A stretch of DNA of 64,000 nt, taken from positions 1 through 64,000 of the forward strand of contig JAPLKI010000010.1 in assembly GCA_026388155.1 (NCBI GenBank). The letters are read 5' to 3'. Numbering within the stretch: position 1 is the first letter of the stretch; each line of letters starts with the position of its first letter. Both the position numbers and the translations under genes were made by a program. Below are positions 29,301 to 46,833 of the stretch, one piece after another. The notes beneath the pieces are model-generated. The model had not been told where the DNA came from. It searched no databases and worked only from the letters and a program-made list of their open reading frames with translations. This stretch comes from Elusimicrobiota bacterium. Lineage in GTDB: Bacteria; Elusimicrobiota; Elusimicrobia; Elusimicrobiales; UBA9959.

Positions 29301-32300
29301 TGTCGGCTTCGGATATGACGATCGGCGTGCCCAATCAGATCATCTTCTCCACCGGAGCGATCACCGCGCAAAGAACGGTCGTGGAGGTGGGCTCAAACAT
29401 GGACCTGGGCGCCAACGACGTGGCCTCCGAGCTGGTCGCGCAGGGAGGCGCGGGTCAGGCGCAGGAGGGAGTGCCCATGATAAGGTTTAACCTTATTACC
29501 GAGGCGGGCAGCGCCCGCTGGTCGGGTATAAAGCTGCAGCGCACCGGCGCCTCTAACGACCCAGGTTCGCCTTTCGCCAAGAACACGGACGTTAAATTCG
29601 TGCATATTTTACAGGACTCGAACCAGAACGACGCGCTGGATGTGAACGATACCGATATATCCAGGGCGGAGGCCGCGCTTGAACTGCCTTTTAAGAACAC
29701 AGACACGGCCTCGGCGGCCGTGCCGTTCAAGCTGGTGGTGGACTCAACTGTCGGCTTCCCGTCTTCGGGCAGGCTGTATCTTGACAACGCCGAACTGGTC
29801 ACTTATTCCACCGCCGGGTATGACGCGGTTTCGGGGCATCCTTACTTCAGCCTTATCTCTCGCGGAGACATACTTGGCGACCTGCCTACCCCCGTTATTA
29901 CCCACGACAAGGGCTCCAGCGCGGTGAAGGTCGATCTTTATGACCAGATCAACCCCCTGAACACCCAGCTGCAGATCCAACTGTCGCAGGTGCAGACGAT
30001 CTCGCCGCTGGCTCAAACCTATTTCGTGAGCTACGACGTGGGCGAAACAGCCGTGAAAAGCAACAAGATAGGCGTCAGTATAGGGGACAAGTCCTGGCTG
30101 ACCGTCAACACGCCGCATGATGTGGGCCCCTGGGTTTATCAGGGGATCACAAAACTGCTTCCCAAGGGCACGGGTACGGATATCTATCCTTTCAGTTCAA
30201 GCCTGGTGCCCATAAAGTCCCTGACGCTCGGCGTTTCCGCCAACAGCATAGCGCCCAAGGCCGCAGAACGCAACACCCAGAATGTGCCGGTGCTCACGCT
30301 TGATTTAAAGTCCCTCTCCGACTATGTGAACATCGGCCAGATACACCTGTTCCAGAACGGCACCATAAGCACCGATACCGCCGGCATGGGCGACGGGGAT
30401 ATCTCAAAGATCTCGCTTTGGAAGGACGACGGCGACGGAGCGTTCTCTCCGATGGCGGACTCGCTCATCGGCTCGGTGCAGCATTGCTCTTCCTGTTCTT
30501 TCAAGACCGGCGCGACCATAAATATAACGGACGGGAAGCTGCCTTATATAACCGTGGGAACCACTACTGTCATCGTGCATGTGGTGGTTTCCATAGGGAA
30601 CACCGACATGACCGGCGCGAGCACTCTGGGCCATCTGGCCGGCATCTCGCTGAATTCTTTCTACGATATTAAGGGACCCAACGGCTGGAGCCTTGCCGCC
30701 GGGCAGAACTATACCGACAAATTCCCGCTGAGTTCGGGGCTGGTGCTTGTATCCCCCTCGGTCATCCCGCTGACGCCCGTTTATAAAAAAATAATGGTCA
30801 CCGCCGCCGGCTACCCGGCCTTCGCCTCCATGACGGTGCAGGGCGCGCTGGTGCTGGGCGCCAACAATATGCCCCTGGCCGCGGACAACATGCCGTGGAT
30901 ATACGCCTCATCGTACACCAAATGCGGCCCGTCCGAGCCTCTTATGGACATAAACGGCGACGGAAAGCCGGACAATTTTGACTTCTTCGGCACCGGCAAA
31001 TGCGTCAATATAAGCCTGACCAACACGGGTATGCCCTCGTTTGATATAGACGGCGACGGTATACTTGACTATGACACCAACAATGACTATATTTCGGATA
31101 AAATATTTGACGACGGGTCGGGCAAGCCGCTTTACTTCATAGGCGATAATGTGCAGAACTCAAGCCTGCTGCTGCCCGTTTCCGACATGGGCGCCCTGCC
31201 CTCGGCCTGGGCGTCCAAAACCACGGAGCTGTCGGCCATGTGGAACCCGGCTTCGGGCCCCGTGGCGTCCTATGAGCTGACGCTGGGCGGAAATTATTCG
31301 GATCCGACCGGCATGAAAGGCTCCTGGCAGCCGGTAGGAGATATCCTTTCCGGCACGGTCAGCAATGTGGCTCTTTCGCCCGGACATTTTACGCACCTGA
31401 CCACCCGCATAGACGTTAATTCTTCCAGTTTCACGGTGGCCTCAACCGAGGGCTTCGCCCAGGAAGGCCTTGTTTATGTCGGCAATGAAATAATGTCCGT
31501 CACAAAGATCGACGCGACTTCTTTCAGAATAGACACGCGCGGCGTGCAGGGCTCGTTTAAAGGGCCGCACACCGCCTGGGGGGAGACGGTCTCCGACAGG
31601 GGTTATGTGCTCTCGGTAAGGGGCGTGACCGCGTCCGGCGCTTATATCCCGAGCGAGGCGGGCGCGCCGCTCATGATTTACCGCATAGACACCTCGGCGC
31701 CTACCGTGCCCGGTATCCCCGCACCCCAGGTGCCCAAGGGAACGGCTTCCGGCCCCGTTTTCTCGCTTAAGTGGGGCGCCTCGCAGGATAACGAGTCCAA
31801 TGTGATGTCGTACGAAATTCAGGAGCGCGAGGGAACGAACTCCGTGTGGAAAACCATAGCGGCCGTGCCGGGCTTCAAGACCGGCGGCGCTGTAAACAAT
31901 GTTTTCAGCGTGGGAGACGTCATAAATCCCGGCCAGAGCCCGACATCGCATCAGCCGGGAAAGTATTACACTTACAGGGCGCGCAGCTGGAACTTCGCCG
32001 GTCTGCATTCCGACTGGTCCGGCGCGTCGGACCCTGCCGGCGTTACAATTGACATTGAAAAGGGCCTGTTCGGCGCTTTATATAATGATCAAAACGGCAA
32101 GCCTGTTTATGTTTCCAATTATCCGAATCCCGTGGACACCAGAAAGGGCGGTGTGGAGGGGAAAACAGCCATTACCTACGCCTTAAACGACAATGCCGAG
32201 GTGTCTATAACGCTTTACGACCTGCTTGGCTATGTGGTTAAAGAGTATCATTTCTCAAGCGGTTCCGACGGCGGAAAACTTGGACCCAATTTCGTTTTGT

Positions 32301-32419
32301 GGGATGGTAAAAACGAGCTTGGAGGCTTTGTGTCAAAGGGCGGTTATATAGTGCGTGTGAAGGCCTCAAGCCCCAAGGGAAGCAAAACCATACTAAGGAA
32401 AGTGGGAATAATACATTAA
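2..32419 (+). CDS. Giant repeat-rich cell-surface protein (adhesin-like), 5' end outside window
   Basis: The frame is open from position 2 with no stop, so the true start lies upstream; the ATG at 59 is internal. From 2 to about 18790 there are Ig-like units of roughly 100-110 residues (some 55-60 judged by length), each with a TPP-type start, an SGTA-D motif, a YWNG-type strand and an A-D-AGN-F-FD ending. From about 18800 to 25440 there are filamin/invasin-like units (AG-F-V-V-A-D-Y-N). From about 25440 to 30770 there are modules with D-x-DGDG-like acidic loops. Two DxDGDG calcium-type motifs lie near 30946-31070, an FN3-like domain at about 31700-32045, and a FlgD/type-A-sorting-like C-terminal domain (SNYPNPV...YDLLGYVV) at 32110-32416. 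It is probably secreted and surface-anchored. The function is inferred; the reading frame is certain. Confidence 0.9.
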   Translation, partial: GGGYPTRFSYSLTAELKAVMADPLNEGATYWFVPWAYDLAQNREFGANTGDPALETDIPATVGTRINYDNVPPAARIVVPYDANKGGIRSLPSISGTALDGYLNSKVQIAIKQYSPTPYWFDGTGFSSAQSDPNWINIVSGASGFLSPNATSWIYSPAALAGAFASGYNYLILVRSSDAASNIQTVFDNDISSMVVKIDKNAPTSAIILPLSDADGYSGRYQGALIGQTATRLSGTAVENPVGAGLLVSSIPATNSIYIRLSYLSSPDTYYWDGGAFNKTISSDSVSAWRNTTVGGSFPTWTWNYVEANIAWDASDREYTLEVKAMDDARLSDDSGLGNVETWPYTATRKFIVDSTPPTVGITTPTVNALTALDKIYGTAAADPAGHQYTKVRISTGTLSFTRYWAGTGTGWVTDQNTWLNTVRQGNTSWYYTVDQPMFSDDTIYTVEARSLDWAGNMSAVYSTSTFTYDTTAPAVSVSYPLAGVVYSQIKLSTPIAGSSSQPGQSSPFALVSTVAVQITQNPGGAETCYNGAGGYGVCPIWLAINGGSLANWQYNSAALSFTNDKQYRVDAKAIDYAGNSSVNSVTFAYDIDKPTSTIVYPLSGVTTGFSQLTGTASDERVAVRNYEASLGTYTIKVAIKRVNAPAGWWNQTSGNFGASNPVWYEVYNATNTSGGYPTRFSYSLTAEIKAIMADPLNEGATYWFVPWAYDLAQNREFGANTGDPALETDIPATVGTRINYDNVPPTTRIVVPYDANKGGIRSLPSISGTALDGYLNSKVQIAIRKYDSNQFWYNGAGFNQNTTYWMDVTSAGGSYLSPAATSWIYAPATLDSDFASGYNYLILVRSSDAAGNIQNGFTDNISSMVAKIDKAAPTSVIARPFNDADGYSGRYQGANIGQTAGSTLLSGTAYDNPPALNSDIQNGSVTIRLSYLTGTTTNYWNGAGFTNSTSSETFWKVALLSGSAPNWTWTYMTDIAWAAGDLEYILEVKAMDDARLSNDAGGGNWEVWPYTTRKFIVDDTPPAVGITTPTVNALKALTGIYGTANAALAGHRLTEIRISTGTGGNTSYWNGSVPGWTTDNTWNTINPQFTYPTSWYYAVNPAMLKDDVAYMAEARATDWAGNVSAVYSTSTFTYDVSSPAVSVSYPLDGVFYSQIKLSTPIAGTSSQPGQSSQFALVSTVAVQIVRSPGSGSEACFNGTTFVGCPQWVPAQGPVAGWSYSSGNLSLSNTTQYRIDAKAADFAGNVSDLKSVTIIYDIEKPTSTITYPLAGYTTGFTLISGTASDERYGVRQYNAKLSSYTVKVAVKRIDTARWWDGFDFPSYVTNPIWYEVTNSTNPNPNQFVYNLPANLISYMSDPAHQTASYLLVPWAYDLAQNREYGPNTGEPLNADIPAGVGTVVAFDNEMPHSYITAPSIARYRTLANITGTSGDNAKVVETRLTIFNTTLNEYYDPALNPPWSVSPKTDNDAPWLAAQQSLYQSSSSWTYNIQDSTWTSGASYRVRARAKDAAGNYDTVYTTATFLFDNQAPVSTVTAPADGSYINTQADTLSGTSYDPGASGVAGLNFYIIRDDGRYFDGVSGWNVNPQPIGANAPYNNWSWPLTAALYNGNDGRRFTIQTNATDLATNVEGYGVKASFVYDITSPTSAISYPYNNGSISQTGKITGGSYDAPNGKVDDVLVGIKELSGGAHTGHYWDSSISNWPAAATVNSVVSYGTLSPSATWWQLNAAPWEAGVTYEINAYARDKAGNYQLVYATATNVQSNFTKPSSSVTWPLNGNVLSAELNVVSGSASATAPSILDKVRVSYYKVSPPAGYWNRAAMLWNSPTELFYDASFPNGVDGGVWLATGISTPSWVTSSGQAIDYRIFAKAVDQAGNEVDKPASPGPLSSYIQFTLNPPPPVTGITTPNTAMPHWKLSPIPQIIGTAVYSTTVQLRIVDYGPNLVEGTGNDDVAWNGAQWISTGSCVDSCFVGVNTVWDGYSWAWSIPSGWNNNRKYRVVSRGRDLNVGTWEVPGIGREFIIDPTAPASGITAPGTTYLKTLSALSGTVSDTAPGTVQSAFFRVKNAAMNYWNWQASTFTALGANTDLPATLSWDDVLKTGTVGYTTDYFLNGSAWENDHSYTAELYVTDKAGNLGSAVAAAFTFDSSSPTARILVPYDANGSGIRYLPSISGTASDNKGNKSVYVAVQQLSSPPMWYNGTSFAENNPVWISVTDNGWLSPSATSWIYAPPGFDAQFTAEPNGTKYVILAYAADIAGNVQDIFNAGISSTVVTIDKYPPYSAITFPADDLDGVHGRYQEGKVGKLATSSRFSGSASDIHYLVNNSTVADVSVRLSYLLNGDTYYWTGLDFSSWTVTSATAWKPASITGSAPNWAWDYRNDINWPAGDREYKLESKAMDDSRLADDTGSGNQENPSSRGVNVKYFIIDNSAPSVLITTPSVNVLKALTGIYGTANADIAGHQNSQVRISTGAGAFTMYWDGAAAGWTAQPNTWNNAVRLGDTSWSYTVDQSMFKDDTVYTISARALDWAGNISAVYSTSTFTYDITGPLVQINTPINGATYSQVRLSTFSGQAFNNQSSPYTGPSTGAVALTDITDPAYPACFNGTYFILCSGTLWLPSQGTSVANWSFLVPDSNFTSDHQYKYEARAFDIVGNPSGISSVITQYDLYAPTSTVIGTGGSYINALTQISGTASDERYGESTYEAGLGTYTLKVALKLKSGGWWNGVGSFGGAYPIWYEAAVDTSPYIQGAAVVNWNWNVPANIQTAMSGIGTTDYLAVSWSYDLAQNREFNSPPGVDPTTVPGGIGSVIKFDNEPPLAVATAPANNSYLNSVDTLYGTAVDKGVVDRVYVMVKARGAFNQYWNGTYNGDQGDWDYAPTTKYTHWNAATYAGGAWSIPLPPLTPVDNSKISVWVRAVDTAGNWMNIPTNPQFDGNLKADGSTAQFFTFDRTIPLTSITVPVSYILARSTGIIKGEAHDGGNEPSGVNRTKLRFRRSGDAYWDFNNNNWLAAPNFYDSDTFSSPEWTKLVNQAAFEDGYQYYINHYAVDLAQNNISGAYFSTFTFVVDFTTPSSKITFPAHNSFLASVPAITGTADDSAENLHPGWPPERSFESGISTSATAVELAMQRLSDGKWWNGAGFLNGTRQWYKADFTGVSSGTWSYGLAAGAIQDGATYYVMSRVADIAGNLQSDYTTNYFTFDTTPPVGLSTAPSSSAGHVIGVPGIYGTAQDSLPGQLRTSGVVLMSIIMSTTPVQCYDPVVNQFTTDCHVTGAYPGDRIWFSTGATASPAGQPAAWSFDTSQVPWINERFYDIIALPIDAAGNQKSFCVNGILNPCNTPPADINFYLETPPALVTINTPEGYDGKNFMASNIHSVGGGGSTSLRKVQLRIKRLKEPVAWWYENGADKYWQDSDTSTMISYNGSAWSQNLSGVDAFTVDNASYTLSAFGYNEIGVMGTPGAALTIIIDNTKPVGTILAPNKPYVNSLTSISGTATDPSSISFLPSLQKDYSGNVFVRFKELDSLRYWNGSSFANGISDIETDYTTANIVNWSTAPATLNGALKDGKNYMVYLRPKDKAGNIETDENQMSHYQILFDTTLPSASFTYPTPRKILRSLDAITGAAYDPIGSNTPNSKSDLDRVELQMYYLMSGGQPKYWDGTSFNTNFSSFNVVSGTDTWSYSRPNFNTGAFSTGYFYVVQARAVDKASNYQNGFTDNISSMTFIWDRTPPSTTIVMPASGGKYKPSNLDGGSALNGAAADAVLPFAPDQINRVQLNLSYLEGNDTYYWAGSAWSNLVSSDTAWQNALGAAAWNYSFNGSMPQEWVSDRNYTLMTRAFDKAEPMDANGGNMQDPPTVQKFVVDGTPPVSRVSAPADGSFIQHTLSQISGTSAGGLAGLQASASLGLKLRIYYIDDAKTYYSSGTALDWSSSTVFNLPLEYSEVGSSTSTITWKYPPVGYSIPVFPTNNHVYYFGIAGLDAAGNQESFSSMSVTTDFNYPTITISTPMAGTGAFYSDARPITSITGNSADAPAGIVPPITAEISQLQADQTLETKWDGAQWSVKPSTFLIVNSINPWDIPAPSLTTNKRYRVVLRSVDNAGNLTPTDLSAGTVFRDFIYDVNKPSSSILVPSLAYHNLAQITTLSGTSAEWVSKSAEAYSGLNYVEMQIVDHTGSDYNYNGAGSFDGGDNWLRPDITYGDNPPPDSKFGVVLHRTASWTYGGGANGWPPAAALNEGSLYKVRVRAIDRAMNLESPYMEKQFTYDNSAPTTTVTMPGAFAYTAMPVIKGDFTEPVPLASGPNPGDGIQIVIMQNSGGYYWDGADWTKTGFTAANWLNATNIYASSWTYVNATLANVFNTLSQSKIFTVYVRGKDVVGNQNRADTVPTAGGVTFTMDRFIPVSNSTYPAVGGGPVVYLNAPISNIAGTALDVDNGINASGLNNVYVRVRRFDALGTPCYFDSFDDNWVADNALSDWMSQDAGSLTTWIKKIPSGDFQGVNHGTCYDGGDKGNGFRFEVQSYARDNTQPAPGTGGPNTEVAYSTAVFVLDYSTPSAGMSVPSHLSYFKSLSSLSGTALDPKIFSNAIPSGLKTIWVELSDTGRTPNQYWKFGSPGSWQTGYSSGAITASSNWTVAASSLPVNAPAGANTWALGRSSSTFVIKVKVQDAAGNYSDFNFNQSTVTLDLVLPVSSVTTPTPDNGSFISVPLISGTASDLTLGVPIADISAVQVRIQQDLGAGQASDCMDTHANGYYWNGSIWQPSEVWLGVDSYDYGTDIWNMNFSAAVFNAQCWYIVTTSATDNAGNAQSAAAPGYRRFRFSPPPAATGIMVPGHMRYQKSLTGISGTANSDTKSIALDLRDLNNNSYWNFNSRSWQVSYSSTTLTTIPGNGNWSYTNTASLPPFQESAAGYNFKSTGYNLWGVAETPYISKVYFDMTAPLASVMTPDSGKMYYNAIPVLSGTAMDPPGITPPAAGIYKVWLQLQALNGDFTNRYWDNEASTFTAVWNQAGSTAAYYGSTWEYTVSSPTAALINGVRYAASVKASDTTYADGFLMGTESELTGENYFNFDITAPTATITSVYSGQVRSAVSVGSGTIKEDLVLYNAANGIPAGAQIQSIKLHIKDNNANRYWTGSEWNDTDPTVSTPAAVYQSSWVVTAVLPAAYWLDNNSYTMWAEALDKAGNLQAGFTDNGSSVTFTMDKKAPLAVINTPKANINISSLELVSGTANDPNPATNSGIAGAGNVQVQIYYGDISDPFYYDGSSDFSDQISGGSSWWPATGWTALNASSGTWVYAPPSLAAAVAKAGDNIYTVKVRVQDNAVPTHNPYPSLLANVVTNANIVYDVTPPVSRVTAPKDNAIIKTNGLKSITGTALDNLAGISAEGQIEVSICEKTPGNFCWDGLGLGTFTLTSEAFHPLSVQLQEASYNVADAKWSFTAPYWSDGYTYVIKVRASDNVTPPNIETDIPSVTFTYDTTPPEAAITYPFNLPDPRGKLNALAAVSGTAFDRFGVKSVSVSMQEDDSGLWYDTDTSTFDSVTHKWIGAVLSGAGPNYTWSADVPPLTDNKNYNIQVTANDQAGNVFTAPSNVVVLYDISPPVSRVSAPQANGFVKSLALITGTAQDVNSHPSGVVGTQLTIRRDAPGFEYWNGSIWAPSEAWLNGASGSPWTKDTQLPPADNQDDGLQDGRLYTMQTRAYDVAGNTETPTAFSSFVFDVSSPTITIARPLNNNRYNITGKPLVLITGSAGDVYSVKYPWVRIHDQQLDAYWLDAAGDCPGVTLPSWVQFYNNCPGYPEIWNVALGSAPGGAFNWSYDSSGVPWPDRDNTLSVEAKAMDEAGNYRITSSIFSFDKTPPVSMILYPPTDGVHYSSMTEISGTSKDLGSQISNVTIKMWYLNGPDTYYWSPVVSGEGKHWSNTDAGWSSIAGAPGPKGGSDPWSYSIDFTDPGEDVFAWKQGTHDGLNGKTFHILTKAIDATTNEQVDFSSSTRTFVFDNEPPLSAPEQPGQGMAYNSLTFIYGTAADPVSGVANAQISVLSQDEPGGAMYSSGFGFTLPGEYWIPLDNLYPSSWTYTASQMPFEDQKHYIVKSSATDAIGNVQSAVGQSRFLFDTTQPQSSLVYPANTIVYEDTELIEGNSSDPGFNSQDIYNSTGSGVHPTQAWQKGSAEIMVFRDTAPYMGGSGPLDFGKGKGWDDTGYFWAGSSWTAASEGPKWVQASAPGSAGNWQYEGLICADDAARAAGTCWVRGKDPYAAWVRATDNAGNQQDNISMGPKFYIAATAKSFLVTVEKTNISAGEIVNMTVEARDAENGTGYTAASYQSTVTFHIDLPTDGPEVMDDDTFIDETHGLPQQYKFPDSKYGVSTFPIRLRKNGSRNLFVVDKDNANIHGAVVVNVGPAAADRLQVIADYDAGELPDPGSLAGKKGAPRSIPAGTNVSFLVQATDKYWNLVVSSAVHAFVSDTDPNNDTASPDGFVDFVGSATISRTFYSADPAGWHTIVAGQGLYPNLNNPSSDVPITPLSADRLVALLPGESRVQGKFDVPPFGKSGTPSDLLAGTPFAVAVYGTDKYYNTDPAAGFQVSADITTDPYDINPAQQNLVAGSTAFIFTPVVAAAHTIKAESSALPSATSAYFTPNPATVWWNIPVKLHLLAGGQSGDPGKPPYTADPATGGRSGSVTPLKAGVYTSMTVNLVDDYYNVVKGTTPFMSVSSNTPVVEMSFLNDPYIKAWGLASSVFQQGLVNGTTIFTFAPATRNQGAGLSVQVADTGATKFSTDTVGGLIVAPNKPVALQLLVPPETAVEGSLTGKSASAAGPLTAGTNYSIEVRSVDAYWNFASDTRKVKLTSNDVYASTKPATPLNNGVAIISFIPSAATSNLVINAVDEGLSPPNLDSQTDSGVTVNPGAPVKMMFVLPDQYLVPGKTTEPYGVAGDISTRTAGVYFNVAVYAADTRYNRVYGVNKSNIRVTSDDMFASYIGDFDMTDGSVAVNNINLRSAGPAIITATDLSGSDPYLVGALSSEFVLNPGNPTRLRAMVPGESSVPGDNLGNGRSGTSTGQKAGYPFNVTVDITDAFWNLTPGASQEIRLVSDDHYTQISPLSQVIIGSGTFMVTPARTGDNVLRAELVNAVPPWGPTLAPDLATTVNVSPGDPVRLLLLMPGEDFNQGLLPGTGTGKVGAAKDQTAGASFGVRVGVIDAYSNLVPGRPLDVKVGTPSDKYAPAVSTAPINTAVGYTDLMYVSMRTAATHYLTATDYGHSGISDDTQSSTFTVIPAAPVGLQLLVPGETAVPGSGVYPAGGKMVSVDTRTAGVPFSVTVNLVDPYMNLYKGFAKGPTVYVNTSDLYDIEPSSAILNQGTAQMPVTLVTRSAASSLKAYPVSAADNYVCSGNAPDSICRNDDAAAKSLFKVYTSTGVRLEVVLPGQSLVEGKCNVSPPCLDPLISWPGRSGPPSIHVIGTGALYASVYLTDMYYNKATYLSGAAQDTYPPAMMPEVKLSLPQDPKAVPPAAQTLFDGLAVFTVDARTSVSSYTVVAATTALSAASYTRGVSTLTVQTGPATHMVYVLPSTTVVAGVPFSATLYVKDAFENNCDTGPNVYLGTAIFDLVALDDFNQLPSLLSQTTNFIPSDLGVKNLPNWFTMRKAGINTLGAYDSLEPDVVKVSPPANIFVLPGPPSLYRVVPDTNIEVPAGTKVSPGRQTLTAQLSDIYDNPISSAGVPVYISISEVYGSTGTLLYKNGFDWFDMGVSTLMYTDDSGQVGVSTQVAYMVSSHSGDWARIWMGTTTVTTDPVAYTLDLAAKQNLSGKLTTTGGGPSKLLFISSQPAATVGIQERDGIGAFFTIERRDDFDNLTKQEETDIPLTLPDDQYTIHTDLGRIRGTTTNYGDYGFRNIGNDHFIILASIMPSQTQVSFRYHDRTSSYSGVSPSSNTFEGARPGYWQIQAGKGTMQIVHQLRMDPMEISKVSFNNQPNTLVAGKVTDLLDVVRYFKPELRDRFDNPSVATETVRVQLSTFTRQASALNDSFAFSISSLTLPGLPVFDSPVTYLDIPLDAYAATFYYLDTTASGVYASSVPVKPIISIEAQDHTDWTASTQSVTVLPDQTRKVNVTKNAGQTIVAGTTSQMFVVAIEDQYGNPTPLVAGQEDSEGAGVALKLDSDSLGRVTFSSPDVSSFTAKPGVAKMALGESATSFYLIDTLVSAPTHTLTINSVVPQGWEPAVSSYTIIAAQPDHLLFYTQPRRLVAGTTVQYQDYAHNITTPTVITMVLRDRYENTTTTDTTTMVRFSAARSSTYGGIDAAKPVQSGGNGWQLLKTNPLDFEIYSGRSYADIYVWDTQVGTATIMADTSIISTQGVTEATLPRVTQDQYITPNAASYFTLHHTYTLSTPLRVNIAGSVTMRARDSFGNIATGDGINGKYYTGKINMGTNSTGSADLRDGFNKTTDYTFVTGDRGERQLRLMDTFVERLKVSVWDYYKSTTTYGYTGDGARGLPVGSDPDVELSGLVVIPTDLAPEDPVPSVKQSIGLTRLSLYQGDGVTSDTPSPVPMLRLTMKTSPAGSPSAYLQSILVKSSGTLPYSDVAEAGLYADNPVNGQVGIFDGENTLGGPLTDIFISSGVYDTGLMGWHFDDLNIKLSTAVLISNTPRNFFLTVRISTGATTPRNLALIVENPTSVVLVSTYVGVAANNFPIFTSTSPVRNTPAKVHIKGTDISAWWQPTVGGVLLEPDQYPYVEQGLERAGMLKLQAWTEGFVATLKSFRIIKTGSGLGSDLLSVRVFLDASGTGDDAWTLGDGIFNRSIDKEITDPNNPPVSDPSDTELFTLPLSNAGMDGNITISTRTYFVVYEFASDAVPSPAAPAAPITHGARLETSGVGLTDGVIVAFSPIASSTVPLYATGDVVYLAAMNKADPNNFSKPTFVTQNDVNKAIARLTMQIGVPNGSTFKGSAVWTGLKLDRWINSSENGGDPSKCSGGAPLYNKASDVKKIDVWYDSTGDGLLETTTTVKDTEVLLVGAKNRVFPTGVLALPLAPDSGAIKVLDIQKFFPSDTTFPMAPGRLIINDAQSDPALKEVVYYSSVNVITNTFNGLTRGAECTTALSWSSGTVISGQAILPLKGFGSTLDGQSLFVTPKDYFITYDIDPLATVDNLANLGLSIRSTDYFTIKAPKQMSTYNIGPSLSVSLVGKVKEYADKVTINAIDTTMGDTLQQKKLNQPIISLTAKTDTADALWRWLIVFATGAVVEDGTAMNDVDAVKVWYDSDNNGLLGGSDVLIGSGTFGNTSYGPLAAKVYISTTARLLSESQAQVDNVSQRFFITYDMKDSALPNDAYGLPRYIGAYLTAESFPMGSPSMDDVARDAFSWPNYYDTGSPLPFTSRMRAVISAPSVVTVESRPIFASPLSQNTAAPVLAQDIATTGPSGDPAWVISSTAGLNSSGYCVVDNEIIHYGDTTAGALLYVERGQFGSVMVKHSSGAVIGTEVFQGTVNWPMLKLTVTTDGYGVRWQGVKLKRLQPDGGTSEPSDDLNGYDSDVSEVTVWKDNGNGIFDRDPATGQNYTDTVIGRGHFGVSPDPVGRVTISVVDPALKGQPYVVVSATSTVFFVSLSVDRAANFSHIALTPPNSVTGVEVPGVTSFIFGPEGAGHTSYFPSPTQSQVQVLLPVFNTITMEPDDVSPVTVTQNDKNVGFLAMNMYVDKTSAKVQALRVNRTGTANDSDIDLVKVWKDSNGDCLLSAVDVSTDASGLYPNLMSYGNEAFSAGTVNLTLKKPLFVTTAPACFFITYDVAQYASVKTTMGLKILSASDMTIGVPNQIIFSTGAITAQRTVVEVGSNMDLGANDVASELVAQGGAGQAQEGVPMIRFNLITEAGSARWSGIKLQRTGASNDPGSPFAKNTDVKFVHILQDSNQNDALDVNDTDISRAEAALELPFKNTDTASAAVPFKLVVDSTVGFPSSGRLYLDNAELVTYSTAGYDAVSGHPYFSLISRGDILGDLPTPVITHDKGSSAVKVDLYDQINPLNTQLQIQLSQVQTISPLAQTYFVSYDVGETAVKSNKIGVSIGDKSWLTVNTPHDVGPWVYQGITKLLPKGTGTDIYPFSSSLVPIKSLTLGVSANSIAPKAAERNTQNVPVLTLDLKSLSDYVNIGQIHLFQNGTISTDTAGMGDGDISKISLWKDDGDGAFSPMADSLIGSVQHCSSCSFKTGATINITDGKLPYITVGTTTVIVHVVVSIGNTDMTGASTLGHLAGISLNSFYDIKGPNGWSLAAGQNYTDKFPLSSGLVLVSPSVIPLTPVYKKIMVTAAGYPAFASMTVQGALVLGANNMPLAADNMPWIYASSYTKCGPSEPLMDINGDGKPDNFDFFGTGKCVNISLTNTGMPSFDIDGDGILDYDTNNDYISDKIFDDGSGKPLYFIGDNVQNSSLLLPVSDMGALPSAWASKTTELSAMWNPASGPVASYELTLGGNYSDPTGMKGSWQPVGDILSGTVSNVALSPGHFTHLTTRIDVNSSSFTVASTEGFAQEGLVYVGNEIMSVTKIDATSFRIDTRGVQGSFKGPHTAWGETVSDRGYVLSVRGVTASGAYIPSEAGAPLMIYRIDTSAPTVPGIPAPQVPKGTASGPVFSLKWGASQDNESNVMSYEIQEREGTNSVWKTIAAVPGFKTGGAVNNVFSVGDVINPGQSPTSHQPGKYYTYRARSWNFAGLHSDWSGASDPAGVTIDIEKGLFGALYNDQNGKPVYVSNYPNPVDTRKGGVEGKTAITYALNDNAEVSITLYDLLGYVVKEYHFSSGSDGGKLGPNFVLWDGKNELGGFVSKGGYIVRVKASSPKGSKTILRKVGIIH

Positions 32420-32681: not shown

Positions 32682-34355
32682 ATGAAACGCATAGTATTTC
32701 ATATACTTGCCCCGTCTGGAATATGGGCCGTTGTAAAGCGCATTGAGCGCTTGGGCCTTTCCACGGGGCTTTTTGTTTCCGTCGGCGCCCTGGAAAAATT
32801 CTCTTTCTCCCTGCTCTTTCTTGCCGCAGCCTTAAGCTTTCAGCCTTCAGCTTTGCTGGCCCAGGGCGGCGGACAGCCCGGCCAGTTCATGTCTTACGGC
32901 GCCGGCGCGCGCGGGCTTGGCATGGGCGGGGCGTTCTTCGCCGTGGCCGACGACGCCTCGGCCTCTTACTGGAATCCGGCGGGGCTTACGCTTCTTGAGC
33001 GCAGTGAATTCACCGCCATGCAGGCGACCATGTTCTCCGATACCACGCTTTCTTTCTTTACCTACGCCCATCCCACCTCCACCAGGGGCACCTGGGCCGT
33101 GAGCATGACGCAGATTAAATCCCTGGGTTTTGAAAAAATTTCCATAACGGCAAATCCCGGCGGCGACGAAATAATAGACATAAAGAGCCTCGGCTCTTTT
33201 GACAACATGGAGCGCGCCATGGCTTTCTCGTGGGGCCGCGATGTGTCCGACAAGCTTTCCTTCGGCATCATGGCGAAAAATATCACCCGTTCCCTTGACA
33301 CTTCAAAAGACTCTTTTAACGCAATAGACATCGCCATGATGCAGAAATTTTCCCCAACCTACAGGATGGCGATAGGTGTGCAGAATGTGTTCTCAATGGC
33401 ATCCGGCGACACCGAAGACAAACTGCCTCTTACCCTGAAATTAGGCCAGGCGCTCAGCCTTTTTAAAGGCAGCCTGCTGTTCGGCCTTGATTTTATCAAA
33501 CCGCAGAGCTCCGCAATGAACTGGCGTTTCGGAGGCGAGTACTGGCTTATGTACTGGGCGGCTTTGCGTTTCGGCGTAATGGGCGCGCCCGGCATTCAGG
33601 AAGCCGATTTCGGAGTAGGCATAAAGTACAAGAGCCTGGGCTTTGACATATCGCAGGGCATTCATGCGCTCGGCACCACCACAAGGTTCTCGGTTACCAT
33701 GCGCATGGGCCAGTCCAATAAAACCAAGCACGACAGCGATGTGCGCACGATAGTGCGCCAGGCTATGCAATACTTCAAGGCCGGTTATTTCACAAGGGCC
33801 ATAGAGAAGCTTAAGAACGCCATAGACTCCGATCCCGGCAACATGGAAATAAAACGCATGCTTATACGCTTGAGCGCCGCCGTGGACTATGTGCCCGACG
33901 CCACCGGCGTCGAAGAAGTGCCCACGCTCGCCCGGCGCGGCATTATCGCTTATGTGGACGGCAAGGATCTGCACAATGCGGTCAATATTCTGCGCCACGC
34001 TTTCAACAAAGACTCCAAAAACGACCACCTGCTCTCGCTCCTGAATATGGTGGAGAAAGAAGCCGGCGTCACCGAACTTTCCCGTAAGCCCGAGGGGCCG
34101 GAAATATTCACCTACATAGACCAGCGCACCTACGACGCCCGCCAGGCCATTTATGACGGGAAGTACGACCTGTCCATGAAACGCGCCCAGGATATACTTG
34201 AACTTGAGCCGAATAATGAAACCGCTCTTGAAATAATGGGCAGTTCTTTCTATCTGATGAATCAGAAAGATAAAGCCAAGGTGATGTGGGAAAAAGTGTT
34301 GGACATCAATCCTGATAATAAGATAGTGAAAGAATTCCTACAGCAGATAAAATAA
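32682..34355 (+). CDS. PorV/UPF0164-like outer-membrane beta-barrel protein with C-terminal TPRs
   Basis: Residues from about 70 carry the family signature: ARGLGMGGAFFAVADDASA and YWNPAGLTLL. Alternating hydrophobic strands typical of a FadL/PorV-like barrel run to about residue 330. The rest (about 345-557) is helical with TPR-like repeats (for example ALEIMGSSFYLMNQKDKAKV), likely periplasmic. A hydrophobic signal segment FSLLFLAAALSF ends at SALLAQ. The start is uncertain: ATG 32682 would give about 40 extra residues before the signal core and would place the terminator hairpin inside the gene. A CTG at 32790 would give a normal signal peptide after the terminator. Neither has a clear Shine-Dalgarno. 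In T9SS bacteria PorV carries cargo at the outer membrane. Here the gene directly follows a giant surface protein with a sorting-like C-terminus, so a partnership is plausible but inferred. Confidence 0.8.
   Translation: MKRIVFHILAPSGIWAVVKRIERLGLSTGLFVSVGALEKFSFSLLFLAAALSFQPSALLAQGGGQPGQFMSYGAGARGLGMGGAFFAVADDASASYWNPAGLTLLERSEFTAMQATMFSDTTLSFFTYAHPTSTRGTWAVSMTQIKSLGFEKISITANPGGDEIIDIKSLGSFDNMERAMAFSWGRDVSDKLSFGIMAKNITRSLDTSKDSFNAIDIAMMQKFSPTYRMAIGVQNVFSMASGDTEDKLPLTLKLGQALSLFKGSLLFGLDFIKPQSSAMNWRFGGEYWLMYWAALRFGVMGAPGIQEADFGVGIKYKSLGFDISQGIHALGTTTRFSVTMRMGQSNKTKHDSDVRTIVRQAMQYFKAGYFTRAIEKLKNAIDSDPGNMEIKRMLIRLSAAVDYVPDATGVEEVPTLARRGIIAYVDGKDLHNAVNILRHAFNKDSKNDHLLSLLNMVEKEAGVTELSRKPEGPEIFTYIDQRTYDARQAIYDGKYDLSMKRAQDILELEPNNETALEIMGSSFYLMNQKDKAKVMWEKVLDINPDNKIVKEFLQQIK
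32709..32774 (+). terminator. Intrinsic terminator, probable riboswitch expression platform
   Basis: A long stem pairs GCCCCGT (32709-32715) with ACGGGGC (32763-32769), continues as GGAA...TTCC and GGCC...GGCC, and has an inner AAGCGC/GCGCTT hairpin. Five T residues follow directly (32770-32774). It starts about 30 nt after the aptamer, the usual layout for ligand-controlled termination. It overlaps the 5' part of the downstream reading frame, which makes that gene's start uncertain. Confidence 0.65.
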
Positions 34356-34517: not shown

Positions 34518-36473
34518 ATGCGCAGATCACTGCTTGCAATTATTCTGGCGGTCCTGGCCGTCCATCGCGTTTTTGCCCAGGCTAACACGCCCGCCGCCGT
34601 ACCGGATACCATGGGTGTTTCCCTGATGGAGAAGCAGGCTTCTCTCCGGCTGGAGGTGGAAAGTAAAATAAAAAGCGAGATCCTTGATCCGATCATGGGT
34701 CCCGGCAAGTCCTTCGTTTTCGCCGATGTGGAGATGGAAGTGGTCTCAAAAAAGTCGGAACAAAACACAGAGGAAATGGGAGCTATTCAGAAATACAAGG
34801 AGAGGGGGGCAAAAACCGGAAGCACCGATACGGATTTTATATTACCGGGAATTCCAAGACAACCGGCTGTTACGGGGGCAGACAATGCCCGCCCGGAGGC
34901 CGCGCGGGGCCAGCAGACGCAGCAGCAGAAGGGCATACAGCAGGTGCGCTACGGCCTTGAAACCGACATCACCCGTTTTCAGGTGACCGTTATCCACGAT
35001 GAGACCGTTTCCCCGGAAAGCCTTAAAACCGCCCGTGAGCGCGTTGACGATTTCCTGATACCTTACAAGATCCACGGCCATGACGCCGCCACGGTCGTTT
35101 TCAAACCCACCAGGTTCAAGAGTTATAATATCCTTGAGGATTTAAGGCGCCCGGGGGTTTATCTGCCGCTCCTCTACGCACTGCTTTTCCTGCTGATGCT
35201 GCTGTTTCTTTTCGGGCCCCTTTGGGGTTTTTTCAGGAAATATATAAAGGCTATCCTTGCAAAGCCGGGCGCCGAGGTCAATATTGACCAGAAAATGGAA
35301 GAAGGCGGCGGCGGCGGCGAAAAAAACGACGCCACTGAAGAAGGGCATCAGCAAATTGACATGAATTTTCTCCAGAAAGAGGAGGAAAAAAAAGATGAAG
35401 AGGATGAGCTTATGAAAAAATTTGAGCCGTTTACTTATTTAACCGAGGAAAATCTGAAAAAACTCGTCTATTTTTTTCTGCTTAAAAAGGAAGACCCATG
35501 GGTTATAGCGCTGGTATTAAGCTACTTGAAGCCGGAACTTTCCCGTCAGGCGCTTTCCATGCTGCCGCTTGAAATGCAGTCCAGGGTGGCTCTTGAAGCG
35601 CTGACCGTGCGTCAGGCCAAGCGCGAGCAGATAGAGGCCATAGACAAGGATATACGGGAAAACGTTGATTTTGTGATGGGGGGCATAGAACGCCTGGCCA
35701 AGATGCTTGAGGACAGCGATGCCTTCACCAGAAAAAACATAATAGAGTATCTCAAAACCCAAAAACCAGATGTTTACGAAAAAATTAAAAAGATAATCCT
35801 TATATTCGAGAATCTGATCAGTTTCACCGATAAGGATTTGCAGACCATAATAAGGAGCGTGAGCAACGAAGACATAGCCAAAGCGATTTATAAAGCCGAT
35901 CCCCAGCTGGTGAATAAGTTCTTCGCCAATATGTCGCAGGGCGCGGTCAATGCCATAAAGGAGGTAATGGAATACTCAGGTGAAATCAGCCCTACTCAGG
36001 TAGATGAGGCCCAAATGAAGATTTTGGACGCCGTAAAAAGCCTGGAGGCCGAGGGAAAGATAAGCGCCCGCCAGCAGAACACCCAGGAGGTTTATATCAT
36101 AGACAGCGATGAAGTCGCCTCCGGCGAACAGCGCAGGCAGAAATTGAAGAGTATCGCCCCTGATGTAATTGAAGCCCGGCCGCCTCAGGGACAGGCTTCG
36201 AACCCGGAGGAGGCTCAACAAGCGGCTCAGTATCTGTCGGCCGGAATTGAGTTATACAACCAGGGAAAGCTGGCCGAAAGCCTGCAGTATTTTGAGTATG
36301 CCTCAGGACTCAACGCCCTGGACGCCCAGATCTGGCAGTGCCTGGGCACGGTTTATTACGCCCTGAACAGAATGGACGAAGCTATGCGGGCCTATGAACG
36401 CTACGCTTCACTCTCAAACGACCCGGCCGTGAATGAATGGCTGGCCGGGTTTAAGCAGCAGGCGGGGAAATAA
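34518..36473 (+). CDS. FliF-FliG-TPR fusion: rotor-ring-like protein
   Basis: Domains in order (651 aa): signal peptide or first TM (1-20); a FliF C-terminal/ring-building-like stretch (about 34-200, including ILDPIMGPGK, the equivalent of LEPVVGPG); a TM helix (about 212-240); an acidic/glycine linker (255-305); FliG middle domain (305-425, IALVLSYLKPE); FliG C-terminal domain (428-520, FTDKDLQTIIRSV, KFFANMSQ, VDEAQMKI); and TPRs (570-650). FliF RBM1/RBM2 are missing. By-eye alignment to E. coli FliG gives K264=Y458, R281=G475, D288=E482, D289=V483 and R297=S491, so most torque charges are lost. The FliM-binding EHPQ motif reads EDPW (325-328). It should sit in the inner membrane with FliG in the cytoplasm. 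MotA and MotB are encoded downstream on the same strand. Domain assignment is strong; the job is inferred. Confidence 0.88.
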   Translation: MRRSLLAIILAVLAVHRVFAQANTPAAVPDTMGVSLMEKQASLRLEVESKIKSEILDPIMGPGKSFVFADVEMEVVSKKSEQNTEEMGAIQKYKERGAKTGSTDTDFILPGIPRQPAVTGADNARPEAARGQQTQQQKGIQQVRYGLETDITRFQVTVIHDETVSPESLKTARERVDDFLIPYKIHGHDAATVVFKPTRFKSYNILEDLRRPGVYLPLLYALLFLLMLLFLFGPLWGFFRKYIKAILAKPGAEVNIDQKMEEGGGGGEKNDATEEGHQQIDMNFLQKEEEKKDEEDELMKKFEPFTYLTEENLKKLVYFFLLKKEDPWVIALVLSYLKPELSRQALSMLPLEMQSRVALEALTVRQAKREQIEAIDKDIRENVDFVMGGIERLAKMLEDSDAFTRKNIIEYLKTQKPDVYEKIKKIILIFENLISFTDKDLQTIIRSVSNEDIAKAIYKADPQLVNKFFANMSQGAVNAIKEVMEYSGEISPTQVDEAQMKILDAVKSLEAEGKISARQQNTQEVYIIDSDEVASGEQRRQKLKSIAPDVIEARPPQGQASNPEEAQQAAQYLSAGIELYNQGKLAESLQYFEYASGLNALDAQIWQCLGTVYYALNRMDEAMRAYERYASLSNDPAVNEWLAGFKQQAGK

Positions 36474-36612
36474 CGCAAGCCTGAAGGCTTGCGCGCCATA
36501 AGCCATATGCTCTAGGCCATAAGCTATGTGGCTGTTCCAGCCGCGCCATAGGCCGTAAGCTTTTAAGGAGTTCTTTACAAGCCTATGGCATATGGCGTAA
36601 AGCTTATGGCAA
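36474..36612. repeat. Stem-loop plus intergenic hairpin repeat, family B copy 1
   Basis: An 8-bp hairpin CGCAAGCC/GGCTTGCG (36474-36493) directly follows the FliFG stop; no T-run. Then comes a long inverted repeat of GCCATAAGC-type units (36494-36612) with a centre AAGGAGTTCTTTA. The remaining stretch up to 36745 shows no convincing gene or promoter. Confidence 0.7.
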
Positions 36613-36745
36613 TCCTGTCCACAGCCTGTTAACAATTCTTTAACCTTAGTGCAATGTCGGATTTATAGAATATGGGTGTGGAAGTGAAGTCTGAAATTAT
36701 ATTTCAGCGCCTGCAGGCTTGTAACTTGTAACGGGAACTAATTCT

Positions 36746-39046
36746 ATGGACGACAGTGAAAAGAAACCTCCAAAACCCGGCATACCGCCTTTGCCGCCTG
36801 GAATTTTAAGGCCCGGCCTGCCTTTACCCCAGCCGGGCGCGCGTCCGGCCCCGGTCGGCGGCTTGGGGCTGCCCAACCCTTTCGCTCAAAATTCGCCGCC
36901 CCAGTTCCAGAGCGCAGCCGCTTACCCCGATGCCCGCGCGCAGCAGGCCGCGAGCGAATCTGCGGCTGAAACCGCCAGAATGAAAGAAGAAAAAGATAAG
37001 CTCGAAAAAAAGATTTTAGAGATGGAAAAGCTGCTTTCCCAGGAGAAAGAGCGCGCTCTTTTAGCCACCCTTAAAAACCAGCAGGATGAGACGCTCTCTT
37101 CAAAAGTGGAATCTTCCCTCAAGGATATACAGGACCGCATGCGCCGCGATAAGCGCGATCAGGAAGTGGAGGAGGAACGCCTTACTTTTAAAGGCAAGAT
37201 AAAAGAGCTTGAAACCCGCCTGATGCAGGAGCGCGAAACCTGGATGCAGAGTCTTAAAGGGCAGGTGGCCGAGCGCGAAACACAGGGGCGCGACGTGGAA
37301 GGACATTTTATTTACCGTTTGCAGGAGATGGAGCGCCGCTGGCTTGACGAGAAAGCGCAATGGCAGAAGGAAATTTCAAGCCGTGAGGACGCCATCCGTT
37401 CGCTCAAGTCCTCGGCCGAGCGGTTGCGTGAAGTCGAGGACGAATTCCGCAGCGTCAGCCTTGAAAAATCCCTGGCTGAAAAGGAAATCTCAAAGCTCCG
37501 CGACGATGTCGCGCGCGCGGAAAGAGAAAAAGCGTCCATAGAGTCCTATATCAAGGCCATGCCGGAGAAGGAGCGGGAACTTGCCGAACTGAGAAGCGAA
37601 GCCGCGATCTTGAAGATGAAGGAGGAAAGGACGCACAGCGATTTTAAGCATCAGGAAGAAAAATACCTCCTTGAAATAGAAAAGCTGCAGCGGGAGCTGG
37701 GCGGCCTCTCCGACAAAAAAAATTCGGAAAAAACGGAGGAACTGAGGGCGCAGATGACCCGCCATGAGGCGCTGCTCCAGGAAAAAGACAAGACCATAGC
37801 CGAAGTTTCAGGCGACAAAGTGCGCGCTATTTCAGAGATGCTGAAAATAAAGGGTTTCGTCTCAAAAGTGCAGGCGATAAATGCGGTGCTTGACAAAGAA
37901 AGAGGACAGCTGCGCATTGAAAAGATGCAACTGGCCCAGAACATGGCGGCCCAGCTTGAAGAGATCAAAAAACTGCGGCAGGAGCAGGAACTTTTCAAAG
38001 CGTCCCACCACGGCGAGATCGAGGAATTTTCAAAAAAATACAGCGAGGACATCGAAAAAATTAAAACCGGAATGGCCTCGGAGTTCGCCCGCCAGCATAC
38101 CGAGAAAATAGCCGAACTTTCCCGCAAGCAGGCCGAGAAAATAGCCGAACTTTCCCGCCAGCGGGACGAGAAAATAGCCGAGCTTTCCCGGCAGCGGGAC
38201 GAGAAAATAACCGAGCTTTCCCGCCAGCAGGACGAGAAAATCGGGAAGCTTACACGCGCTCATATGGAAGAGATGTCTTCTTACGCGGCGAAATGTCAGG
38301 CGGATCACGACTTGAAACTTTCCGAGTTGCGCTCCAGGCTTGAACGGTCCTCCTCCGATTTTAAAGCCCAGATCGAGGCCGAGTATGCGGCTAAATTTAA
38401 ACAGCTCAAAGAGCTTGCCGTAATTTCCGAGGGAGAGAAAACACATCTTGAGATTGAAAACCGCAGGTTCTCCGAGAAGTTCAATAATTTTGAAAGGGTC
38501 GCCGCTTCAAAGCAGGAAGAACTCGCGGCCAAAGCTGAGGCGCAGTACGGCGCGCTGGCTTCACAAAAGGCCGAATTGGAAAAATACGTCCGCGCCTTTG
38601 AAAACGAAAGGTCAAAAATGGCCGGAGACCTTGCCTACGTCAAAAATCAGCTTGAGGCCGAAAGGTCAAAAATGGCCGGAGACTTTTCCGCCGCCAAAAG
38701 CCGGCTTGAGGCCCTTGCCGCTCAGAAATCCGCCGCCGAGGCGGAACTCGCCCGGCTTTCAGGCCAGCTCAGGACGGAAAGCGCCAATCGCGCCGGTTTT
38801 GAGGCCGAGATGCTTTCGCTTAAGAACAGAGTCCGTGACCTTGAACAGGCCGCCGCTGAAAATGAGAGCCTGTTCGCCTCCGAACGGGATAACGCGGAGG
38901 CTATGAAGACTGCCGCCCGGGCTCAGCTTGCGGATTGTGAGGCCAAAATCGCGGAGCTTTCAGGAGAACTGGAAAAATATAAGGCGGTTGAAAGTTCTCT
39001 TGGTTCCAGGCTCAAGTGGGCGATTAAGGGTAAGACAAGCGAATAG
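36746..39046 (+). CDS. Long coiled-coil protein with proline-rich N-terminus
   Basis: 766 residues. Residues 1-50 are rich in P and G (GIPPLPPGILRPG). From about 70 to the end the sequence is almost entirely charged coiled coil (E/K/R/L/A), with no signal peptide or TM, so it is probably cytoplasmic. Residues about 453-507 form five 11-residue units of type EKIAELSRQRD (hendecads). There is no enzymatic motif. It sits between FliFG and FlbD-MotA-MotB on the same strand and may act as a cytoplasmic scaffold or filament of that machine; this is inference. The start ATG has only a weak upstream GGGAAC. The stop codon lies in the next repeat element. No family recognised. Confidence 0.85.
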   Translation: MDDSEKKPPKPGIPPLPPGILRPGLPLPQPGARPAPVGGLGLPNPFAQNSPPQFQSAAAYPDARAQQAASESAAETARMKEEKDKLEKKILEMEKLLSQEKERALLATLKNQQDETLSSKVESSLKDIQDRMRRDKRDQEVEEERLTFKGKIKELETRLMQERETWMQSLKGQVAERETQGRDVEGHFIYRLQEMERRWLDEKAQWQKEISSREDAIRSLKSSAERLREVEDEFRSVSLEKSLAEKEISKLRDDVARAEREKASIESYIKAMPEKERELAELRSEAAILKMKEERTHSDFKHQEEKYLLEIEKLQRELGGLSDKKNSEKTEELRAQMTRHEALLQEKDKTIAEVSGDKVRAISEMLKIKGFVSKVQAINAVLDKERGQLRIEKMQLAQNMAAQLEEIKKLRQEQELFKASHHGEIEEFSKKYSEDIEKIKTGMASEFARQHTEKIAELSRKQAEKIAELSRQRDEKIAELSRQRDEKITELSRQQDEKIGKLTRAHMEEMSSYAAKCQADHDLKLSELRSRLERSSSDFKAQIEAEYAAKFKQLKELAVISEGEKTHLEIENRRFSEKFNNFERVAASKQEELAAKAEAQYGALASQKAELEKYVRAFENERSKMAGDLAYVKNQLEAERSKMAGDFSAAKSRLEALAAQKSAAEAELARLSGQLRTESANRAGFEAEMLSLKNRVRDLEQAAAENESLFASERDNAEAMKTAARAQLADCEAKIAELSGELEKYKAVESSLGSRLKWAIKGKTSE
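38102..38266 (+). repeat. Five tandem 33-bp repeats (hendecad coiled coil)
   Basis: Units start at 38102, 38135, 38168, 38201 and 38234. They encode EKIAELSRKQA, EKIAELSRQRD (twice), EKITELSRQQD and EKIGKLTRAHM. The 11-residue period fits a hendecad (right-handed or nearly straight) coiled coil, and the DNA identity suggests slippage-driven expansion. Confidence 0.9.
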
Positions 39047-39165: not shown

Positions 39166-39390
39166 ATGATCAAGCTTAAAAAACTTAACGGTTTTGAAAT
39201 TGTGGTGAACGCCGAGCTTATTGAGAGCGTCGAGGCCACCCCCGATACCGTGATAAATCTTGCCACCGGCAACAGGTTCATTGTCAGGGATTCCGTGGAT
39301 GAGGTGGTGGCCAGGGTGGTGGAATATAAAAAGAAGGTCTATAGTGAGCGGAAAGTGATAAATCCCATAGAGGGATTTGAAAAGAAGTAA
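39166..39390 (+). CDS. flbD: FlbD family protein
   Basis: 74 residues, the full length of this small family. It matches the typical pattern MIKLKKLNG...NAELIESVEATPDTVI...V.ESVDEVVA.V.EYKK. In flagellated bacteria flbD commonly sits next to motA/motB in flagellar operons; its exact role is poorly defined. Here it lies 101 bp upstream of motA, strengthening the flagellar-motor ancestry of the block. Probably leaderless, with -10 TATAAT 7 nt upstream. The family call is confident. Confidence 0.9.
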   Translation: MIKLKKLNGFEIVVNAELIESVEATPDTVINLATGNRFIVRDSVDEVVARVVEYKKKVYSERKVINPIEGFEKK

Positions 39391-39491: not shown

Positions 39492-40277
39492 ATGGATATA
39501 GCCACAATAAGCGGAATAATAGTTTTTCTCGGTTTCATTTTAGGCGCCGTGTATAAACAGGAAGGCTTAGCCGGCTTCAAACCGTTCATGAACCTGGAGG
39601 CTTTCCTTGTTGTCATGGGCGGAACTTTTTGCGCCATTTTGGTGAATTATCCGCTTTCCGCTGTTATAGGTGTGGGCAGGGTGCTTAGGCAGGTGCTGAC
39701 TTCCAAGGGCGAGGATACCTCGCGGCTGGTTTCCACCTTCGTCACGCTTTCCCAGAAAGCCAAAAAGGAGGGGTTCCTGGCGCTTGAAGGGGATGTGAAA
39801 GCCCTGGACAATGATTTTTTAAAAAGGGGAGTGCAGCTTGTTATAGACGGGGCGGATCATGAATTTATAAAGAATATGCTGGAAACCGAGCTGGATTTTA
39901 TAAGGGAACGCCATAAAGTGGGACGGGAAATTTTCAACGCCCTTGGCACTTACGCCCCGGCTTTCGGCATCATAGGCACGGTGTTGGGTATGATACTGCT
40001 GCTTGCCAACATAGACGATGTAACCCAGGTCCCGCGGCGCATGGCGCTGGCGCTTTCGTCCGCTTTCTTCGGCCTTGGGGCCGGTTACTGGCTTTTTCTG
40101 CCCATGGCCGGAAAACTCAAACACCGCTCCGAGGAAGAGCTTTTCGTCAAAGAAATAATCATAACCGGCGTGCTCCTTTTACAGAGCGGCTCCACGCCCA
40201 GCGTGGTGGAAGCGAACCTGAAGGCTTATCTTGACCCTTCAAAACGCGCCGCTGTGAAAAAGGAAGCTAAGCCGTAG
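39492..40277 (+). CDS. motA: MotA-type stator protein (proton or sodium channel subunit)
   Basis: 261 residues with four TM helices and the large cytoplasmic loop of MotA/PomA. Functional residues are kept by eye: K91 and E99 align with E. coli R90 and E98 (rotor contact), P156 (TYAPAF) with P173 and P204 (LFLPMAG) with P222. The Shine-Dalgarno GGAG lies upstream (39482-39485). motB follows after 16 bp, so the two are co-transcribed. With MotB it should form the 5:2 ion-driven stator at the inner membrane. The stator contact residues look conventional, in contrast to the divergent FliG part encoded at 34518. Confidence 0.93.
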   Translation: MDIATISGIIVFLGFILGAVYKQEGLAGFKPFMNLEAFLVVMGGTFCAILVNYPLSAVIGVGRVLRQVLTSKGEDTSRLVSTFVTLSQKAKKEGFLALEGDVKALDNDFLKRGVQLVIDGADHEFIKNMLETELDFIRERHKVGREIFNALGTYAPAFGIIGTVLGMILLLANIDDVTQVPRRMALALSSAFFGLGAGYWLFLPMAGKLKHRSEEELFVKEIIITGVLLLQSGSTPSVVEANLKAYLDPSKRAAVKKEAKP

Positions 40278-46607: not shown

Positions 46608-46803
46608 AAATGCCTTCCTAAATCTTTGATCGCTTTTCGCTTGCTTTAAGACCTGAAACTTGCAACTATCCTTATCTCTCTGCTCTATTCTGTCTTCAGC
46701 GGCTGTGCAAAGGAAAAGAAACAAAAAATCAAGATATCTGCCTGAACCGTCTTTAAATTCTAATCCAGTCGTGTTACGGAAATAATAACTTATAGTTAAA
46801 TTA

Positions 46804-46809
46804 TTATAC
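46804..46809 (-). promoter_or_regulatory. Possible -10 box for the GYF-like gene
   Basis: TATAAT on the minus strand in an A/T-rich stretch about 195 nt upstream of ATG 46607. No clear -35 is visible. Confidence 0.25.
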
Positions 46810-46833
46810 AATGTAACAGGATTTACCTTATAA

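Follow-up and report, generated by a model that had tools for sequence, protein, structure and literature searches.

A conserved Elusimicrobiota gene cluster encoding a FliF-FliG-TPR fusion protein and a flagellar-type stator, a putative rotary motor without a flagellum

A gene cluster encoding a single-chain FliF-FliG-TPR rotor protein and a MotA/MotB stator was identified in the window, a stretch of 64,000 nucleotides at the start of contig JAPLKI010000010.1 of an Elusimicrobiota bacterium (GenBank assembly GCA_026388155.1). The FliG and FliF homology of the rotor open reading frame is secure, the cluster is conserved in the phylum, and genes for flagellar export and switching are lacking. 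On balance, the cluster probably specifies an ion-driven rotary motor that uses flagellar torque parts without a flagellum and is coupled to a giant adhesin at the outer membrane. To our knowledge, the bacterial flagellar rotor has been known only within flagella having an export apparatus. Conservation of a rotor and stator that lack export gate, switch ring and filament would mean that the torque module can stand alone, which would bear on the evolutionary assembly of the flagellum and would offer a minimal natural motor of about five proteins for torque studies.

Gene cluster, paralogues and distribution

The order of the genes is giant Ig-like protein, PorV, rotor, coiled-coil protein, FlbD, MotA, MotB and lipoprotein. 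The features are as follows.

2 to 32419, forward strand: giant secreted Ig-like protein (10,805 aa or more; Big_3_2/Big_13 repeats), its gene truncated at the 5' end by the start of the contig
about 32111 to 32416, forward strand: T9SS/FlgD-like C-terminal domain of the giant protein (last ~102 aa), from profile matches
32682 to 34355, forward strand: PorV/PorQ-family outer-membrane barrel with C-terminal TPRs (NF033709, 109.1 bits, cut-off 90)
34518 to 36473, forward strand: FliF(RBM3)-TM-FliG(M+C)-TPR single-chain rotor protein, 651 aa, ATG start
36746 to 39046, forward strand: cytoplasmic Pro-rich/coiled-coil protein, 766 aa, with no signal peptide or TM; in 46 of 52 loci
39166 to 39390, forward strand: FlbD/SwrD homologue, 74 aa (PF06289, 91.5 bits, E 2.5e-26)
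39492 to 40277, forward strand: MotA stator subunit (PF01618, 3.1e-26)
40294 to 41043, forward strand: MotB stator subunit with Asp32 and OmpA domain (MotB_plug 9.5e-12, OmpA 6.5e-21)
41147 to 41884, forward strand: lipoprotein with lipobox VSTGC and a CarboxypepD_reg-like domain (0.0094); in 35 of 52 loci

Several related short repeats of the CATAAGC/GCTTATG type are present in the intergenic region between the rotor and coiled-coil genes (36474-36745). On the reverse strand, 44481-46811 encodes a protein of 776 aa that has one strong TM and matches GYF_2 weakly; its gene is found beside ddl in many relatives.

The tail of the giant protein was matched by the profiles T9SSA_dep_M6i (2.7e-6), TIGR04183 (1.4e-4) and FlgD_ig (1.1e-5), the last two just under their curated cut-offs (21.8 versus 23 bits and 25.7 versus 27 bits, respectively). 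The same tail (E ~1e-50) precedes PorV by 110-442 bp in most class A loci. It was counted directly upstream of PorV at 27 of the 52, window included, and many of the other loci are too short or come from deeper lineages. In the deep branch the tail domain occurs as short proteins of 130-255 aa, and the giant protein does not adjoin the cluster in L115 and several deeper lineages (L120-L131). PorV adjoins FliF-FliG at nearly every orthologous locus, and the order PorV, FliF-FliG, coiled coil, FlbD, MotA, MotB, lipoprotein is repeated across the phylum; these seven components are present at 33 of the 52 class A loci and all eight at 24. PorV and the lipoprotein are connected to the motor by gene neighbourhood only.

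Four FliG_C proteins are encoded in the source genome, all of them FliF-FliG fusions, and MotA, MotB and a PorV-family gene lie in or near each cassette, the PorV-family gene of the type C cassette scoring below the PorV cut-off. The fusions of types B, C and D (G000 contigs C1, C16 and C22; loci L040, L041/L043 and L042) are without TPR tails. As many as five paralogues occur in one genome. Types A, B, C and D were separated in a tree of the FliG_MC region, in which the order of the types and their link to flagellar FliG are unsupported at depth and the L120 row is mis-sliced. Histidine kinases lie beside the type B and type C cassettes. In type C, two histidine kinases and two CheY-like receivers are located between the stator and rotor genes (L041:11301-17345), a layout that suggests phosphorelay control of the type C motor. 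The type D cassette contains two MotB-like genes in tandem. A candidate PorV at L042:6568-7485 was rejected as a TPR cross-match per NCBIfam.

In profile searches of the source genome, both FlhA and FliM/FliN were absent. Within its family, FliG_C was found in 32 of 37 genomes, FlhA in two and FliMN_C in one, the flagellated G009; in the phylum sample, the corresponding counts for FliG_C and FlhA were 46/140 and 1/140. The FlhA carriers are the family members G009 and G027, both with flagellar gene operons, and G082 outside the family; G027 also has a class A cassette. All named relatives of the rotor belong to the Elusimicrobiota, and genome contigs were scanned for fusions with class A peptide patterns. 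The original prediction described a smaller system, with no mention of FlbD, of the adjoining PorV and giant-protein genes, of the three paralogues of the cassette or of the lack of a flagellum. No description of the system was found in the open-access literature searched (Elusimicrobia motors, FliF-FliG fusions and non-flagellar FliG), and Elusimicrobia are unmentioned in a survey of MotAB across 27 phyla (PMC12505986).

Domain structure of the rotor protein

The rotor was originally described as a single chain with a short FliF-like ring part, one TM after the signal, FliG middle and C-terminal domains, and TPRs. This architecture was confirmed, all of the domains being present in one 651-aa open reading frame, as follows.

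34518 to 34580, forward strand: signal peptide, aa 1-21 (...VFA/Q), overlapping a hydrophobic segment at aa 4-22
34623 to 35111, forward strand: FliF RBM3, aa 36-198, split by a collar-like insert (AF2 topology, Foldseek and hhalign)
35151 to 35225, forward strand: TM helix equivalent to FliF TM2, aa 212-236 (hydrophobicity and AF2 model)
35478 to 35666, forward strand: FliG_M, aa 321-383, with EDPW at 325-328 equivalent to EHPQ (PF14841, 1.5e-10)
35748 to 36062, forward strand: FliG_C with torque helix, aa 411-515 (PF01706, 7.6e-28)
36204 to 36461, forward strand: TPRs, aa 563-648, placed after FliG_C (Pfam, with matches at aa 575-633, and AF2)

Both FliG matches (PF14841 and PF01706) exceed their cut-offs. 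Chance likeness was excluded by a phmmer match to the FliG structure 1lkv (E 1.8e-30), together with the orthologues at 47 other loci in the phylum. By Foldseek, the FliG part matched 1lkv (3.6e-11), 1qc7 (TMt 0.97) and the FliG of 8ucs (TMt 0.93). FliG_N was not found in the rotor with PF14842 or TIGR00207: the former gave a weak match only (0.0068) that overlaps FliG_M, and the latter scored 116 bits against a cut-off of 226.7.

The periplasmic part was identified as FliF RBM3 through the type B profile, hhalign and Foldseek. Its top Pfam match is PF08345, which in type A reaches 16.6 bits, under the cut-off of 23.8; types B (35.0 bits) and C (26.8 bits) exceed this cut-off, and type D, like type A, is sub-threshold. 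In profile-profile alignment with hhalign, type A was joined to type B at 97.2%, and type B to FliF RBM3 plus TM2 at 97.7% (E 1.8e-12, 173 columns), and controls with MotA, MotB and PorV did not exceed 1.2%. When the AF2 model of aa 30-250 was searched with Foldseek, the best 18 PDB matches were all FliF S-ring/RBM3 structures (prob 0.97-1.00). The modelled topology is helix 36-60, strand 65-79, the insert, strand 145-161, helix 166-179 and strand 192-198. Besides the signal peptide, the rotor has a single hydrophobic segment, at about aa 214-232, and a linker separates this TM from FliG_M. RBM1/RBM2 (PF01514) gave zero matches in the genome at E 1, and TM1 is also missing from the rotor. In the TPR part, Tyr/Trp columns are invariant across 24 orthologues.

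Torque-helix residues and the stator

Residues were mapped by a gap-free HMM alignment to Thermotoga maritima FliG and then converted to E. coli numbering. The correspondences first drawn by eye were exact (K264=Y458, R281=G475, D288=E482, D289=V483, R297=S491 and EHPQ=EDPW), as was the assignment of the facing MotA residues K91 and E99 to R90 and E98. Conservation was counted over 48 orthologues, comprising the window rotor and those at the 47 other loci. The R281 position is Gly in 48/48; the R297 position is Thr or Ser in 44 and Asn or Ala in four; at the D289 position Ile (33) is commonest, followed by Ser (7), Ala and Glu (3 each), and Val and Gln (1 each); 43 orthologues lack K264; and the Gln of EHPQ is replaced by Trp in 45. 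The D288 position (E482) is Glu in every orthologue, position 485 is always acidic and position 481 always basic, and a Lys stands at the position after K264 (459) in 29 of the 48.

The claim that torque and switch-binding residues are missing thus held for most canonical contacts (R281, R297, D289 and the Gln of EHPQ), which are replaced. It did not hold for the face as a whole, which is not bare; the charges at 459, 481, 482 and 485 correspond in part to the conserved charges at shifted positions that were named at the outset as speaking against the claim. The claim is also overstated in that the phylum's own flagellar FliGs lack R281, R297 and EHPQ: in those of G027 (L044) and G009 (L045), from the family of the source genome and ordinary FliGs of 320 aa, R281 is replaced by Glu and R297 by Ser, and EHPQ is gone. 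In E. coli FliG, R281, D288 and D289 are primary and K264 and R297 secondary, and most single charge neutralisations are tolerated in Vibrio FliG (PMC6079164). The deep-branching L132, L134 and L135 retain K264 and have Glu-Glu at 288/289, which points to a gradual erosion of the torque residues. As for the FliM interface, which at first seemed rebuilt, the EHPQ motif is indeed replaced; with FliM/FliN absent from the genome, the interface is partnerless rather than rebuilt.

The stator is of the flagellar type, with a MotA fold including the torque loop and a MotB with D32, plug region and OmpA domain; the best PDB match of MotA is the MotA of 8ucs (1.4e-49). The ion-channel residues MotB D32 (35/35 in class A) and MotA Pro173/Pro222 are conserved. 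The charge of MotA R90 is present as Lys in 38/38, and the E98 position is Glu in 21 of these and Gln in the other 17. In most class A loci the FlbD gene lies between those for the coiled-coil protein and MotA, immediately before the latter; the Bacillus homologue of FlbD, SwrD, is reported to increase the power of the motor (Hall 2018, as cited by PMC9195833).

The canonical pairs R281-E98 and D289-R90 are lost from this rotor-stator set. In class A, MotA position 98 is Glu in 20 and Gln in 7 loci that have a Lys at FliG 264/265, against Glu in one and Gln in 10 that have none (Fisher p 0.0006, computed ignoring phylogeny). In type B, MotA has K98, and an acid is present at FliG 265 in 6/8. 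The Q-Q pairing is essentially one clade, and in Elusimicrobiales MotA varies between Glu and Gln with FliG unchanged. This charge co-variation, though it rests on few independent changes, is compatible with a direct, co-adapted rotor-stator contact.

Proposed machine and alternative readings

Ring formation, rotation, the ion, the torque path, partner contacts and the output are predicted as follows. FliF-FliG-TPR chains would assemble into one inner-membrane ring, with RBM3 and collar in the periplasm, one TM per subunit and FliG in the cytoplasm. Such a ring is plausible since RBM3 alone makes the S-ring in FliF structures. The rotor protein itself consists of FliF's C-terminal half fused to a FliG that lacks FliG_N. 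The function of FliG_N is to bind FliF; as the fusion replaces this binding, the domain would be dispensable. MotA5MotB2 units, anchored to peptidoglycan through MotB and aided by FlbD, would push the FliG torque helix, and the TPRs and the coiled-coil protein may stand in for the FliM/FliN ring as a cytoplasmic scaffold. Rotation is likely. Torque would leave through the RBM3/collar ring, probably by way of the lipoprotein and the PorV-family barrel, so as to move the giant Ig-like adhesin at the outer membrane and give gliding or adhesin movement, as with GldLM and SprB. Because a flagellum is usually absent and the adjacent genes encode a giant surface protein and a protein of the outer membrane, the motor probably drives something other than a flagellum at the cell surface. 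A bolder reading, given slightly less than an even chance, is that stand-alone FliF-FliG/MotAB motors, in several paralogous types per genome, constitute a third type of machine made of flagellar parts, next to flagellum and injectisome, and move a giant adhesin held by PorV for gliding throughout the phylum. If an adhesin is driven in this way, the gliding engine would be distinct from GldLM and from Agl/Glt.

The system shares with the flagellar MS/C-ring, MotAB and FlbD/SwrD the split RBM3, TM2, FliG_M and FliG_C, MotA, the D32 and OmpA domain of MotB, and FlbD. It differs from the flagellar rotor in that RBM1, RBM2, TM1 and FliG_N are gone, FliF and FliG are fused and a TPR tail is added, and from the flagellum in that FlhA and FliM/FliN are absent, flagellar genes are unseen in the cluster, and PorV, the giant adhesin and a lipoprotein adjoin. 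A natural FliF-FliG fusion occurs in Chlamydiaceae, bacteria not thought to be flagellated (Bergeron 2016, PMC4768692). That fusion keeps part of the SctJ region and FliG_M only, with RBM3 absent (PMC4768692), whereas the reverse applies here: RBM3 and FliG_C remain, without the SctJ region, and MotAB is adjacent. Engineered FliF-FliG fusions are cited as assembling and rotating in Salmonella (cited in PMC4768692), and an engineered Vibrio S-ring fusion forms rings (PMC11481574, PDB 8z4d); these sit in an otherwise normal flagellum, whereas the present fusion is natural and usually occurs without one.

In Bacteroidota, GldLM moves the SprB adhesin of Flavobacterium (PMC8986121). Shared with that GldLM/T9SS system are an inner-membrane ion motor and a PorV-family barrel, to which a translocon resembling SprA and a large adhesin whose tail resembles a C-terminal sorting domain, each scoring below profile cut-offs, may be added. 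The differences are that the motor here is MotAB with a FliF-FliG ring, that GldL was not found, that PorV lies inside the motor cluster and that SprA and the motor do not vary together. In an unlikely alternative, the motor energises type IX-like secretion itself by replacing GldLM for an SprA-type translocon, with adhesin movement secondary or absent. The source genome does encode an SprA-like protein (TIGR04189, E 2.4e-42) of 1840 aa at L142:8703-14225 (contig C25), scoring 144.5 bits against an equivalog cut-off of 200, and TIGR03513 (GldL) had no match in it at E 1; PorV within the clusters and the T9SS-like tail of the giant protein fit as well. The SprA gene, however, is not near the cluster. 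Of 61 relatives, 60 have SprA, among them 24 genomes of family f2 and five of f1 that lack FliG_C, so the motor cannot be a general requirement for secretion in the phylum. Co-occurrence is likewise unsupportive of a motor required for SprA-type secretion, as SprA is found with or without FliG. Adhesin movement is favoured over powering secretion since genomes without the motor also have SprA.

Less probable still is a non-rotating ring, the stator and ring remnants serving as a mechanosensor or signalling scaffold for histidine kinases. Kinase genes adjoining the B and C cassettes could suggest sensing, CheY-like regulators adjoin C, and degenerate canonical torque residues and the TPR and coiled-coil scaffolds would suit such a role; however, the kinase is absent from type A, the most conserved cassette, and MotB D32, MotA Pro173/Pro222, FlbD and the invariant E482 are all preserved.

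A decaying flagellar relic is strongly disfavoured. Flagellar homologues without FlhA, FliM and FliN, and FlhA persisting in two family members and one other member of the phylum, might be expected of one; it was ruled out by intact open reading frames with many invariant columns across 24-48 orthologues, by up to five paralogues per genome with a conserved new set of partners, and by the coexistence of flagellar operon and cassette in G027. An ordinary flagellar switch protein misrepresented by assembly or annotation, which the clear FliG_M and FliG_C domains might recall, was refuted: FlhA, FliM/FliN and a PF01514 FliF are all absent, and the same fusion recurs in dozens of independent assemblies.
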